Source of the DNA: an uncultured Schlesneria sp. | GTDB lineage: Bacteria > Planctomycetota > Planctomycetia > Planctomycetales > Planctomycetaceae | NCBI GenBank assembly: GCA_903840265.1 | Contig: CAIMFH010000113.1 | Coordinates: forward strand, 1-64,000 | Reading direction: 5' to 3' | Length of the DNA: 64,000 nt | Shown here: positions 2,798-28,120 of the stretch, in pieces | Layout: the number at the start of each line of letters is the position of its first letter | Numbering within the stretch: position 1 is the first letter of the stretch | The notes under the pieces: generated by a model | The model's input: the letters and a program-made list of their open reading frames with translations, nothing else | What the model was told of the DNA's origin: nothing | The model's database searches: none | Position numbers and translations under genes: made by a program

Positions 2798-3430
2798 ATG
2801 CAATCTGCTCGATCAGGACTCTGGACTTCGCTGGCGGTGACTGCACTGGCCCTGCTTGGCTGCGGTACGCCCGCTGCTCCCACGGTGAAGAAAGATCCCA
2901 TTGGGACCAACTCCGTCGACAAGACTACGCCTGTTGCCGAAGCAAGCGACACCCTCGAACTGAAGGAACTCAGTTGGGATCAATTGCAGGAAGTCGTCGC
3001 CCGCCACAAGGGCAAAGTCGTTGTCGTCGACATCTGGTCCACGTCGTGCGAACCCTGCCTGCGCGAGTTTCCTCACCTAGTCGCATTGCAGCAGCGGCAT
3101 CCTGACGACGTGGTCTGCATTTCATTCGATTGCGACTACATCGGCGCGAAAAACAAGGCGGTCGGCTACTACCGGGAACGCGTGCTCAAGCAACTCACCA
3201 GCCAGCATGCCGAGAAGCTGATCAATGGCATGTCCACCCTCGCCGCGGACGAATTGTTCCAGCAACTTGATATCGATTCAATTCCCGCGGTCTACGTATA
3301 CGATCGAACGGGCAAGCTTTCTAAGCGATTTGATAACCGCACGCCCGCCAGCGATTCCGAAGAAGGCATCTCCTACGAGAAACAGATTGATCCCCTCGTG
3401 GCCGACCTGGTCAAGGCGGACAACATCTGA
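2798..3430 (+). CDS. TlpA-like thioredoxin-fold lipoprotein
   Basis: A 210-residue lipoprotein with a thioredoxin-like domain. The start MQSARSGLWTS gives a clean lipoprotein signal ending LALLGC (lipidated Cys22); an upstream TTG at 2714 is possible but would bury the signal. The redox motif CEPC (Cys84 and Cys87) lies in WSTSCEPCLREFPHL, after the strand KVVVVDIW, which is the TlpA/ResA arrangement. Family members reduce or exchange disulfides in the envelope, for example in cytochrome maturation; the partner here is unknown. The stop codon overlaps the ATG of the following rRNA methyltransferase gene (TGATG), so the two are translationally coupled. Confidence 0.8.
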   Translation: MQSARSGLWTSLAVTALALLGCGTPAAPTVKKDPIGTNSVDKTTPVAEASDTLELKELSWDQLQEVVARHKGKVVVVDIWSTSCEPCLREFPHLVALQQRHPDDVVCISFDCDYIGAKNKAVGYYRERVLKQLTSQHAEKLINGMSTLAADELFQQLDIDSIPAVYVYDRTGKLSKRFDNRTPASDSEEGISYEKQIDPLVADLVKADNI

Positions 3431-4218
3431 TGGTCGATTCGTCCAGGCGCAGCCGTCAGGTGATGAGCAACCACAATCGTTGCTGGATCTGGGGCCGCCA
3501 CGTCGTGTTAGAAACTCTCCAGGCGGGTCGCTGGCCTATTCTGGAATTGCTCGTTGGTGAGCAAATGGAAGAACGACTGCTCGCGGATTCGATTCGCCTC
3601 GCCGAACGTGCCGACGTACCGCTGAATGTCGTCAGCGAAGCCATGCTGACCAAGTCCTGTCGAACGGCCGAACACCAGGGGTTTGCCGCCCGCATGGCAC
3701 CGTTCCCCTATCTGACTCCTTCTCAATTCAGCAGCGGTCTGCCCGACAATCCCGTCATCGCCATCCTCGATCGCCTGCAGGATCCGTTCAACTTTGGGGC
3801 CATCATCCGCTGCGCGTCGACCTTGGGAGTCGACGGCATCGTCGTCAGCGACCGCGAACAAGTTGAGATCAACAGTCAGGTCGCTCGGAGTTCGGTTGGC
3901 GCGGTCAACTACCTGCCGATCGCGCAAGCTTCAGACTTGGTGGCGGCCGTCGATCAGTTTCATGATCGCGGATGCCAGATCATCGGCGGTACTGAAAAGG
4001 CCGATCGACCGCTGTATCAAGCAGACTTCCGCCGTCCCTCCGTGCTGATCATCGGCAACGAAGGACGAGGAATTCGTCCAGAATTATTGGGGCGTTGCGA
4101 CGTCTCTGTCAGTATTCCGATGAGCGGCCAGATCGGTTCGCTCAATGCCGCGGTCGCCGCGGGAATTATGTTTTATGAAATGCGCCGGCAGCGCAGCCTG
4201 CCGCCAGTCTCAAGGTAA
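3430..4218 (+). CDS. TrmH/SpoU family RNA 2'-O-methyltransferase (RlmB-like)
   Basis: A 262-residue SPOUT-fold methyltransferase that uses S-adenosylmethionine to methylate a ribose 2'-OH. An N-terminal substrate-binding segment (GRHVVLETLQAGRWPILELL) resembles RlmB, which modifies G2251 of 23S rRNA. The three knot motifs are all present: LDRLQDPFNFGAIIRCA, VLIIGNEGRGIRPELL and IPMSGQIGSLNAAVAAG. The start at 3430 overlaps the tlpA-like stop; an internal ATG at 3463 is an alternative. A second TrmH-family gene follows after 4 bases. Exact target base is not proven by sequence alone. Confidence 0.85.
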   Translation: MVDSSRRSRQVMSNHNRCWIWGRHVVLETLQAGRWPILELLVGEQMEERLLADSIRLAERADVPLNVVSEAMLTKSCRTAEHQGFAARMAPFPYLTPSQFSSGLPDNPVIAILDRLQDPFNFGAIIRCASTLGVDGIVVSDREQVEINSQVARSSVGAVNYLPIAQASDLVAAVDQFHDRGCQIIGGTEKADRPLYQADFRRPSVLIIGNEGRGIRPELLGRCDVSVSIPMSGQIGSLNAAVAAGIMFYEMRRQRSLPPVSR

Positions 4219-4222
4219 CTTC

Positions 4223-4957
4223 ATGTCGTTGGTGCTTCGCAATCCGCATAGTGTTCTTGCTGCGTTACAGACTCGGCCAGAAGATGTCTTCGAAATTCGG
4301 CTCGCCCCGGGCACCCCTTCGCCCAAATGGTCCGAAGTTGCTGAGCTGGCACGTCAACACGAGATTCCGATTCGCACGAATCTGGCGGTGGAAAAACGTC
4401 CTGCGGGAGCAGCGAAAACGGAACGAGTGGGTGCGGCTGTCGCGTTGGTTCGCGAACGCCCTGATGGCCTGGTCGATCAATTGTTCGCCGGTGATCCCTC
4501 AGAGTTACAGGGACTATGGTTGGCGCTCGAACAACTGCAGGATCCGCATAACGTTGGCGCGATCTTTCGGACGGCGGCGTTCTTCGGGGTTAATGGGATC
4601 GTCCTGACTCGCGACCGATCCGCGCCGCTTTCCGCGACCGTCTACGATGTTGCCTCAGGCGGATTGGAATACGTCCCGTTTGCGATTGTGCCAAGCCTCA
4701 GTCGTGCGATCACACTGGCTCGTGAAGCGGGTGTTGCGGTCATCGGAACGTCAGAACGTGCGGAACGCAACATCGACGATGTCCCCGTCGATCGACCACG
4801 CCTATTGATCTTCGGCAACGAAGAACACGGACTGCGGCGAGTGACTACCGAAAGCTGCGACGAACTTGTTTCCTTGCCGCCGCTGGGACCGATTCAATCC
4901 CTCAATGTGTCGGTGGCGGCCGGGGTCTGCATGTCTAAGCTCGCCAAATCCTCTTGA
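4223..4957 (+). CDS. TrmH/SpoU family RNA 2'-O-methyltransferase, second paralogue
   Basis: A 244-residue SPOUT methyltransferase directly downstream of another member. It carries LEQLQDPHNVGAIFRTA, LLIFGNEEHGLRRV and LPPLGPIQSLNVSVAAG, the three conserved motifs of the knot that bind S-adenosylmethionine. The chosen ATG at 4223 begins MSLVLRNPHSVLAAL, matching the usual substrate-domain start; an upstream start at 4145 would overlap the previous gene by 74 bases. The two proteins differ widely outside the motifs, so they probably modify different RNA positions rather than being a recent duplication. Confidence 0.82.
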   Translation: MSLVLRNPHSVLAALQTRPEDVFEIRLAPGTPSPKWSEVAELARQHEIPIRTNLAVEKRPAGAAKTERVGAAVALVRERPDGLVDQLFAGDPSELQGLWLALEQLQDPHNVGAIFRTAAFFGVNGIVLTRDRSAPLSATVYDVASGGLEYVPFAIVPSLSRAITLAREAGVAVIGTSERAERNIDDVPVDRPRLLIFGNEEHGLRRVTTESCDELVSLPPLGPIQSLNVSVAAGVCMSKLAKSS

Positions 4958-25556: not shown

Positions 25557-26480
25557 TTATGACAGTCGTGTGACATGCCATGTGACCAATGGCAGGGCTT
25601 TCCACAACACGTAGGCAACCGGACCGGCATAAAGCACGCTATCGATCAGGTCGAGCAAGCCGCCGAAGCCAGGTAGCAACCTGGCCGAGTCCTTTTTGCC
25701 GACATCACGCTTGATCAAGGATTCGCTGAGGTCGCCGATCAGGCCGGTGACTCCGAGGATTAAGCCGTAGACGGATGAGCTCAACCAGTCGGGTGGTGTC
25801 CAATGTTCCCCTTTCGGTGCGAATAACGGGGTCGCGAAGTACAACCACAGGACGGCACTGATCGCCGAGCCGACCAAGGCACCGACGCCACCGGCCCACG
25901 TCTTGCCCGGCGACAGCAACGGTACCATTTTGCGTTTGCCGAACAGTCGCCCAAAGAAGTACGCGCCAACGTCACCCCCTTTGGTGACGACCAGAAGCGA
26001 ACCAAGCACCAGGTATCCCGCGTCCGCTCCAGCCACCCAGCGGAGTTGCGAGACAACCCCGAGGAGGACGCCGATGTAACTGACAATCAGTAGCTCTGCT
26101 CCCAGTGTTTCCATGCTCGCGCCAGGTTCGCGATAGCGGTAGGTCGCCAGCAGGAACATGGCCAGGACGGTCAGCGAATACGCCAGCATGACCTGAGCAA
26201 GGGTATTGTCATCGGAAGGGATGCGGATCGGCATGTGTCCGAATCGTCCCCACCACGCGGCGCCGGCGACCATGACACACGACGCACAGACGATGACACG
26301 GTTCGGTGTGAACGAGCGAGTCCAGAGCAGATCGACCATTTCGTTGGCACCGCGCAGTGCCAAAGCGATGACGAGGACAAGTAGCACTGGTGCCGATTCA
26401 CCCAGTCGTGCGTCTAACCAGAACAGCCCGAAGAAGGCCGGAATCAGCACAGCGGAGACAGCAAGACGCCAACGGAGCAT
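25557..26480 (-). CDS. cdsA: phosphatidate cytidylyltransferase
   Basis: A 307-residue integral membrane enzyme that makes CDP-diacylglycerol from phosphatidic acid and CTP for phospholipid synthesis. The C-terminal signature is present as ESLIKRDVGKKDSARLLPG then FGGLLDLIDS, close to the S-x(2)-KR-x(4)-KD-x(5)-PGHGG-x(2)-DR-x-D pattern; HGG is FGG and the second Asp/Arg pair is changed to DLID, common in this phylum. The start MLRWRLAVSAVLIP at 26480 resembles CdsA N-termini; a TTG at 26525 is possible. It follows uppS closely (71 bases from the chosen start, 26 from the TTG), a frequent bacterial arrangement. Confidence 0.87.
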   Translation of the reverse strand: MLRWRLAVSAVLIPAFFGLFWLDARLGESAPVLLVLVIALALRGANEMVDLLWTRSFTPNRVIVCASCVMVAGAAWWGRFGHMPIRIPSDDNTLAQVMLAYSLTVLAMFLLATYRYREPGASMETLGAELLIVSYIGVLLGVVSQLRWVAGADAGYLVLGSLLVVTKGGDVGAYFFGRLFGKRKMVPLLSPGKTWAGGVGALVGSAISAVLWLYFATPLFAPKGEHWTPPDWLSSSVYGLILGVTGLIGDLSESLIKRDVGKKDSARLLPGFGGLLDLIDSVLYAGPVAYVLWKALPLVTWHVTRLS

Positions 26481-26550
26481 GGTGAGAAGTTGTTTACGAT
26501 CTTGATTTTCAGACGCGGCCCACAATTACCTGCCTATTGATACCGGACTT

Positions 26551-27447: not shown

Positions 27448-27711
27448 TCAGGCCATCGGGATCAAACGCGAATCTTCATCTTCAAACGTGAAATCATCGT
27501 CGAACGCATTGCAACTGGAACTGGCTGCAAAATCAATGTCGCAGTCGTTGTCGTCGGAAGAAAGATACAAGACTTCTTCGCGATAGGAAGGCGAGGCATC
27601 GGGATCGATGATCGCCAATCGCACGCAGTCACCCTGGACTTCCAGGACATTGACCTGCACGGTCTGGCCAATCACTAAACCCTCTTCGATACCACGCGTA
27701 TAGACTCGCAT
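27448..27711 (-). CDS. CsrA-like translational regulator with acidic C-terminal tail
   Basis: An 87-residue protein whose first 50 residues align with CsrA: TR at 5-6, GL-VIG (11-15), VNVLEVQG (20-27), VRLAI (30-34) and YREEV (43-47). Arg44, the key RNA-contacting residue of E. coli CsrA, is at the same position. Leu4, also important, is Tyr and Arg7 is Gly. Residues 52-81 form a tail rich in Asp/Glu, with DDNDCDID and FDDDFTFEDED. CsrA normally binds GGA motifs in mRNA leaders; changes in the first strand and the acidic tail may weaken or regulate that. The start has GAGGG seven bases upstream. It precedes uppS by about 50 bases. Confidence 0.75.
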   Translation of the reverse strand: MRVYTRGIEEGLVIGQTVQVNVLEVQGDCVRLAIIDPDASPSYREEVLYLSSDDNDCDIDFAASSSCNAFDDDFTFEDEDSRLIPMA

Positions 27712-28120
27712 CGCGCGCCCTCAATGACTTTGTTCGATCAGATGTGCTTCGACTACTCGGAGTCGATCATGGGGCGACATTCTGCCGAGCAACCATAACG
27801 AGAGCAAGTAGAAAAATGTGACTTCGTGAAACTGAGAAACGAGAGACTTGCATCTCTTGACAGAATGGGTCCGCGCATGACATCAGCATCCTTCAACTTG
27901 ATGTCGACAAGCGTATCGAAAATGCGTCAGCATGTCGGCGAAGAATGAACATTATGAGACAACAGGCGATGTTCATGTCACACTCAGTCAACGTCATCGA
28001 GATGATATCAATCAAGTGATCGTGATGTTCGACGGCCATCGCGGCCGGATCATCAAGAGATTCAGAATCGCCTGTTTTTAAGCCTTATTTTTATTTCATG
28101 AAGATATGAGGGAGTTCGCA
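27712..28120. other. intergenic region between csrA-like and dehydrogenase genes
   Basis: About 410 AT-richer bases between divergent genes. No credible gene or clear RNA fold could be supported. It must contain the upstream signals of both neighbours, including the csrA-like gene. Confidence 0.45.

Follow-up and report, generated by a model that had tools for sequence, protein, structure and literature searches.

Predicted CsrA-fold paralogues with a replaced RNA-reading face, mostly encoded upstream of uppS, in one planctomycete family

The CsrA/RsmA/RsmE proteins (PF02599; TIGR00202) are the closest described relatives of the protein considered here. The described antagonists of CsrA, FliW and CesT, are not CsrA-fold proteins. 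According to the parts of the structural and mutational papers cited in this paragraph, R6 and E46 form an inter-subunit salt bridge in CsrA (PMC3791407, PMC6692469), several RsmE complexes show Arg44 stacked on the A(N)GGA adenine (PMC4005645), and the GGA is read mostly via backbone groups (PMC3791407). The residues ranked top by mutagenesis are R44, V42, L2, I47, V40, L4, R6 and R7 in E. coli CsrA, and L2, A36, R44, E46, R6, L4 and I42 in C. jejuni CsrA (PMC6692469). In RsmN, the R62A exchange, which is equivalent to a change at R44, lowers RNA binding more than 1000-fold, yet the variant still restored swarming in an rsmA mutant (PMC3791407), and R44 may therefore be less absolute a requirement than is often said.

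A divergent member of this family is encoded in the window, that is, the whole stretch of 64,000 nucleotides analysed here, which derives from an uncultured Schlesneria sp. (contig CAIMFH010000113.1). The features of the locus, in coordinates of the window, are as follows.

27448..27711, minus strand: CsrA-like protein of 87 amino acids, with a predicted CsrA-fold core (residues 1-48) and an acidic tail (residues 49-87); PF02599, 36.4 bits
26551..27408, minus strand: uppS, undecaprenyl diphosphate synthase; PF01255, 259 bits; TIGR00055 above cut-off
25557..26525, minus strand: cdsA-like phosphatidate cytidylyltransferase, third gene of a putative operon; PF01148, 154 bits
28106..29122, plus strand: D-2-hydroxyacid dehydrogenase, a divergent and conserved neighbour; PF02826, 175 bits
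27779..27807, minus strand: predicted promoter, with TTGCTC as -35 box, CAGAAT as -10 box and a 17-nt spacer; boxes shared by the Schlesneria orthologues
27712..27778, minus strand: predicted 5' leader, the 67 nt that separate the -10 box and the ATG, including a Shine-Dalgarno-like GAGGG; the transcription start is putative

The order of the genes is as an initial annotation of this DNA had given it, with the CsrA-like gene ahead of co-directional uppS and cdsA. The divergent dehydrogenase is probably not part of the function of the CsrA-like gene. Elsewhere in the window, two adjacent and slightly overlapping frames on the plus strand (3430-4218 and 4145-4957) encode what we take, from their translations, to be two SpoU/TrmH-type RNA methyltransferase look-alikes.

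The core of the protein matches PF02599 over residues 3-48, above the Pfam gathering cut-off of 27 bits, and R44 is present, in agreement with the earlier view that the CsrA core is recognisable and Arg44 kept. The NCBIfam equivalog cut-offs for CsrA are failed by the protein (TIGR00202, 37.1 vs 70.1; NF002469, 36.5 vs 73); of eight canonical-type CsrA paralogues of this genome that were tested, four pass. About 48 residues of the core can be aligned to solved CsrA chains. An AlphaFold model built with 15 sequences is weak (pLDDT 62, pTM 0.43) and serves as support for the fold only; in this low-confidence model no C-terminal alpha-helix follows beta5, and when it is used as a Foldseek query CsrA chains rank top, with weak E-values of 0.09-0.28. 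By its domain score the protein is of the CsrA fold, but neither the functional cut-off nor the contact residues mark it as CsrA. Its core is under purifying selection, with dN of 0.06-0.09 vs dS of 0.49-0.88 when species of the Schlesneria subclade that includes the window are compared, near twins excepted.

The protein carries R2, Y4, R6, G7, R31, D36, S40, S42, Y43, R44 and E46, where canonical CsrA has L at position 2, A at 36, V or I at 40 and 42, and usually H at 43. The replacements of Leu4 by Tyr and Arg7 by Gly, from which an altered RNA-binding strand had been proposed, are both confirmed, and R2, D36, S40, S42 and Y43 add to the alteration. Among the eight residues ranked top in E. 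coli CsrA, five are replaced in the window protein (V42S, L2R, V40S, L4Y and R7G), V stands for I47, and R44 and R6 are kept. G7 alone is nothing special, because it is also found in two canonical-type paralogues of the same genome. The canonical-type paralogues L148-L150 of this genome, which stand outside the position counts, keep L2, L4, R6 and R44; on reading by eye, positions 36 and 43 of L149 are V and L, respectively.

The same face is changed throughout the subfamily to which the protein belongs, as seen when 66 distinct members are compared with a canonical set of 19, made up of E. coli CsrA and 18 sequences from these genomes. L2 is kept in 1/66 members vs 19/19 canonical sequences, L4 in 5/66 vs 19/19 and A36 in 1/66 vs 19/19; V or I stands at position 40 in 3/66 vs 18/19 and at position 42 in 1/66 vs 19/19; and position 43 is Y in 65 of the 66 members and H in 14 of the 19 canonical sequences. 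These changed positions are RNA contacts in the RsmN structure, as described in part of PMC3791407. In addition, the net charge of the first 46 residues has a median of -4 (-9 to 1) in the subfamily vs +1 (-1 to 3) in the canonical set. The key change of the subfamily is in the RNA-reading face and not in the tail, and its members have lost most of the side chains with which canonical CsrA holds the GG of GGA.

Position 44 is R in 43 members, W in 20, Y in two and Q in one, so that 23 are non-R (L101, which carries a loop insert, is read as W and non-R in these final counts). By genus, R is found in 14, W in 16, Y in one and Q in one, one genus having both W and Y, and the tree requires a minimum of six switches between R and another residue. 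All 15 Schlesneria proteins, that of the window included, have R44. R6 and E46 are each kept in 57/66 members, and both together in 49/66, the pair being incomplete in 17. Within Schlesneria R6 is present in 13/15; the proteins L047 and L048 (genomes G008 and G007), whose start codons were set to the ATG that matches the other orthologues, begin with MQCLLSL and have lost R6, L2 and R7 with E46 kept, so that the pair is not universal.

Orthologues are found in all 14 other Schlesneria genomes searched, with 98-50% identity over the reported stretches and each directly upstream of uppS; because the gene is kept in 15/15 genomes of the genus and is in each followed by uppS, a chance ORF or a pseudogene is excluded. 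Beyond the genus, members of the CsrA-like subfamily were read in 67 genomes of 31 genera, all of one planctomycete family; these are the genomes whose loci were fetched, mostly the top scorers of a profile search rather than a random draw. Loci L096 and L099 (canonical on reading), L103 (cut by a contig end) and duplicate loci of the same genome were left out before counting, and one identical sequence was removed before the residue, tree and charge counts, which leaves 66. A profile of the relatives matches 79 of the 170 genomes of the order (one family) at 69 bits or more, a number that includes genomes whose loci were not read, and at least three members that were read (G007, G041, G047) score below 69 bits. 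In a class sample of 248 genomes, 37 profile matches at E ≤1e-17 all lie in the window's family, at least one of them (G017) being canonical on reading; the true member of G007 is missed at this threshold, and weak members may exist outside the family.

In 52/67 genomes, from 19 of the 31 genera, uppS lies directly downstream of the CsrA-like gene, and in 14 of the 67 it does not adjoin the gene although downstream sequence is available. The divergent dehydrogenase is found upstream in 43/67, and neither neighbour is present in the fetched stretch of five genomes. A tree built on residues 1-52 places all 66 distinct members on one side of a single branch and 22 canonical sequences on the other, with an SH-aLRT of 93, a value that is good but not decisive given the few columns. 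The window gene is best described as the Schlesneria member of a putatively old subfamily of CsrA-like paralogues in one planctomycete family. No uppS-linked or planctomycete CsrA variant was found among titles and abstract openings of the open-licence literature, and the paper on essential genes of Planctopirus limnophila does not mention csrA in its main text, as a term search shows (PMC10632474).

The window protein has company in its cell. A canonical CsrA, for which the initial annotation had suggested a search, is indeed encoded in the genome, where 12 PF02599 loci are found, the window gene scoring lowest and the 11 others being of canonical type; across the order, each of 170 genomes, incomplete ones included, has 3-17 CsrA-domain loci. 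FliW was found neither in the window's own genome nor in any of 150 family genomes, with B. subtilis and T. maritima positive as controls, and was set aside as a partner. The order thus combines a large CsrA expansion with no detected copy of the known protein antagonist FliW.

The leader of the gene is constrained as sequence in Schlesneria, where it is 65-70 nt long. The exact promoter pattern TTGCTCT-N15/16-GCAGAAT has a single match in the 7.5-Mb assembly, and a looser pattern of similar kind is found at 45/67 loci. With gaps skipped, leader identity is 91-100% vs 24-88% at fourfold sites among eight Schlesneria of one subclade, and 82-88% vs 52-66% in the window's subclade, near twins aside; identities that skip gaps flatter non-coding DNA, and by them the stretch of 100 nt beyond the promoter also scores 66-97%. 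When gaps are counted, mean identity is 92% in the 70 nt preceding the CsrA-like gene vs 78, 67, 51 and 48% for four other genes of the locus, which is the fairer control although it covers these four genes only, the 78% stretch lying inside the uppS coding sequence. A leader model, built from 11 of these leaders and applied to at most 150 candidates per genome, gives one match per genome in 14/15 Schlesneria, always at the CsrA-like gene; in the family it matches 12 of 150 genomes, one match being weak and outside Schlesneria. As the matches are almost confined to Schlesneria, a target in the leader cannot be general to the subfamily.

The leader may be controlled by a bound protein or RNA. 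Several more specific ideas were tried and dropped: the leader is no multi-copy RNA family, given the single match per genome in 14 of the 15 genus genomes, and two candidate helices, a local hairpin and a long-range pairing to the Shine-Dalgarno sequence, seemed to show compensatory changes on inspection by eye, but their covariation scores were reached by 160/500 and 496/500 shuffles. The sole favourable hint, from the test with 160/500, is the number of pairs changed on both sides, which is four vs 2.5 in shuffles (32/500 as high). Hairpin stem lengths in single leaders are not clearly above those of dinucleotide shuffles made by an approximate routine, and Rfam gives no match at E ≤1 for loci L039, L043 and L009 (the latter two being the window's own locus) and none at the gathering threshold across the window. 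GGA is absent from the leaders of the window and three others of its subclade, and occurs once in each of the nine leaders of the other Schlesneria subclade, with A(N)GGA in only one; the latter leaders could be a target of ordinary CsrA. In one Schlesneria subclade (L039-L048), a further promoter-like stretch (CTTGCCC, about 18 nt, CACAAT) is seen by eye in the gap between the CsrA-like gene and uppS, and uppS may therefore also be transcribed alone.

The window protein is probably not a standard GGA-reading CsrA, and its job in the cell probably differs from that of CsrA. As a fuller mechanism, we propose, with less confidence and as a tentative reading, a dimeric CsrA-fold regulator of altered specificity that would act on another RNA, possibly its own leader. 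The proteins of the subfamily would still form a CsrA-type dimer, R6 presumably pairing with E46 here as well, and GGA sites would not be read in the standard way; another RNA would instead be held by the stacking of Y43 and of R, W or Y in position 44. A dimer with a new ligand is suggested because the dimer pair is retained and the RNA face replaced, and RNA binding of altered specificity is the first choice because 65/66 members have one of R, W and Y at position 44 and the leader is constrained; W or Y at this position could replace the adenine stacking of R44 by stacking on another base. The first candidate target would be the leader itself, through which the expression of the unit of CsrA-like gene, uppS and cdsA, and with it perhaps the adjoining genes for membrane and cell-wall lipids, could be controlled, and in Schlesneria the acidic tail would serve for tuning specific to that lineage. 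The changed side chains need not abolish GGA binding, since GGA is read through the backbone and R6, R31 and R44 are kept in the window protein, and a negatively charged core is poor for RNA binding.

The strongest rival, to which we give limited credence, is mixed-dimer antagonism, in which the protein would pair with canonical CsrA subunits and so titrate Csr activity in cells where FliW was not found. Each RNA site is made of beta1 from one subunit and beta5 from the other, so that in such dimers the sites would be damaged and two-site binding lost. The kept R6 and E46 beside the changed RNA face, the 12 CsrA loci of the genome and 3-17 across the order, and the 0/150 result for FliW all fit this reading; moreover, in the parts of the papers cited, a two-hybrid assay shows that Rsm paralogues can form heterodimers, the H43A and R44A exchanges weaken binding by RsmQ (PMC9928087), and tests have been made on CsrA dimers that carry R44A in a single subunit (PMC7652899). 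However, the R44 of all 15 Schlesneria proteins means that beta5 could still serve a site, and the link to uppS is left unexplained. A bolder version is to be held more loosely, as rather improbable: a chromosomal, family-wide CsrA-fold paralogue without GGA reading would act as a mixed-dimer brake on the canonical CsrAs in place of FliW, and the constrained leader would tie this brake to undecaprenyl and phospholipid synthesis through uppS and cdsA. Also unlikely, if slightly less so, is an ordinary CsrA whose contacts have drifted and which binds GGA more weakly to regulate few mRNAs. The window protein passes the Pfam cut-off and retains R44, R31 and R6, GGA recognition is largely a matter of the backbone in the part of PMC3791407 that treats it, half of the eight canonical-type paralogues tested miss the NCBIfam cut-offs too, and GGA stands in 9/9 leaders of the other Schlesneria subclade; but the joint replacement of L2, L4, A36, V40 and V42 with Y43 in 65/66 speaks for re-specialisation rather than drift, and R44 is lost in 23/66, a loss set against the more than 1000-fold weakening by R62A in RsmN (PMC3791407, in part).

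Two further alternatives turn on the C-terminus. The tail of the window protein after residue 46 has 41 residues, of which 12 are acidic and one is Arg (net -11), in line with the roughly 12 acidic residues first counted, and it had been proposed to fold back as a mask of the RNA site or a mimic of RNA. The last 13 residues are identical in 4/15 Schlesneria, which would suit such a role, and yet tails across the subfamily range from 9 to 42 residues and from +1 to -13 in net charge: outside Schlesneria shorter tails are frequent and members of four genera have just 9-10 residues after position 46, and in Schlesneria 14 of 15 tails carry -4 to -13, that of G010 being +1. The tail also evolves faster than the core (in the window's subclade, dN of 0.21-0.38 for the tail vs 0.06-0.09 for the core, near twins left out), most of it, residues 55-67 and 72-87, lies under pLDDT 50 in the AlphaFold model, and the RNA site supposedly masked is itself changed; three canonical-type CsrAs of the host have tails of net -5. 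Because length and charge vary, evolution is faster than in the core and pLDDT is low, the tail is unlikely to be a mechanism common to the subfamily, whose shared feature is the RNA face of the core, and the masking idea is the least credible of the readings weighed here. Scarcely more credible is a protein-binding adaptor that would keep the dimer scaffold and take a protein partner on the old RNA face or on an ELQL-like or acidic C-terminus. An ELQL-like motif near the C-terminus is found in 28/66 members vs 0/22 canonical sequences, the core charge is negative, and CesT covers the RNA pockets of CsrA (PMC7652899, in part); against this, the motif was not found in Schlesneria members. A coupling of the tail to R44, with ELQL-like ends in 18/23 non-R44 vs 10/43 R44 members, was rejected, as the association is not significant in a tree-based test that takes relatedness into account.

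The altered-specificity regulator thus remains the preferred, if tentative, reading, and either a self-regulating or an antagonist role, both raised by the initial annotation, is possible for the window protein. By that annotation's own standard, its reading would fall if all close relatives shared the same residues, bound GGA normally and had a tail of no effect; of these, the shared residues are seen in the relatives of the window's Schlesneria subclade. What gives the subfamily its interest is that the GGA-reading surface, strongly conserved in the canonical set, is replaced as a set across 31 genera and that the essential arginine has become tryptophan in members of 16 genera, while the dimer pair (49/66) and the place beside uppS (52/67) are largely kept. 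Its members offer natural variants with which to ask what the CsrA scaffold does besides GGA binding.

Compared with CsrA/RsmA/RsmE, the window protein is alike in its alignable core, in R6/E46 and in R44, and differs in the replacement of L2, L4, A36, V40, V42 and H43, in missing the equivalog cut-offs, in its acidic core, and in a setting of uppS and cdsA in which FliW was not found. RsmN/RsmF of Pseudomonas aeruginosa is likewise a divergent chromosomal paralogue beside canonical ones, but it has an inserted helix of about 16 residues between strands 2 and 3 and keeps its contact residues (PMC3791407, in part); no RsmN-type insert is seen between these strands in the alignment of the window protein. 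The plasmid-borne homologue RsmQ, too, adds a CsrA-type protein to a cell that has several others, and it provides the precedent for mixed dimers; unlike the window protein, it keeps the VHRE/D site and binds GGA, as far as the part of PMC9928087 cited here goes. In its candidate role of limiting CsrA, the window protein would resemble the antagonists FliW and CesT, and it could be one way in which planctomycetes that have 3-17 CsrA loci, and in which FliW was not detected, hold their CsrAs in check; unlike FliW and CesT, this candidate antagonist would itself be of the CsrA fold.
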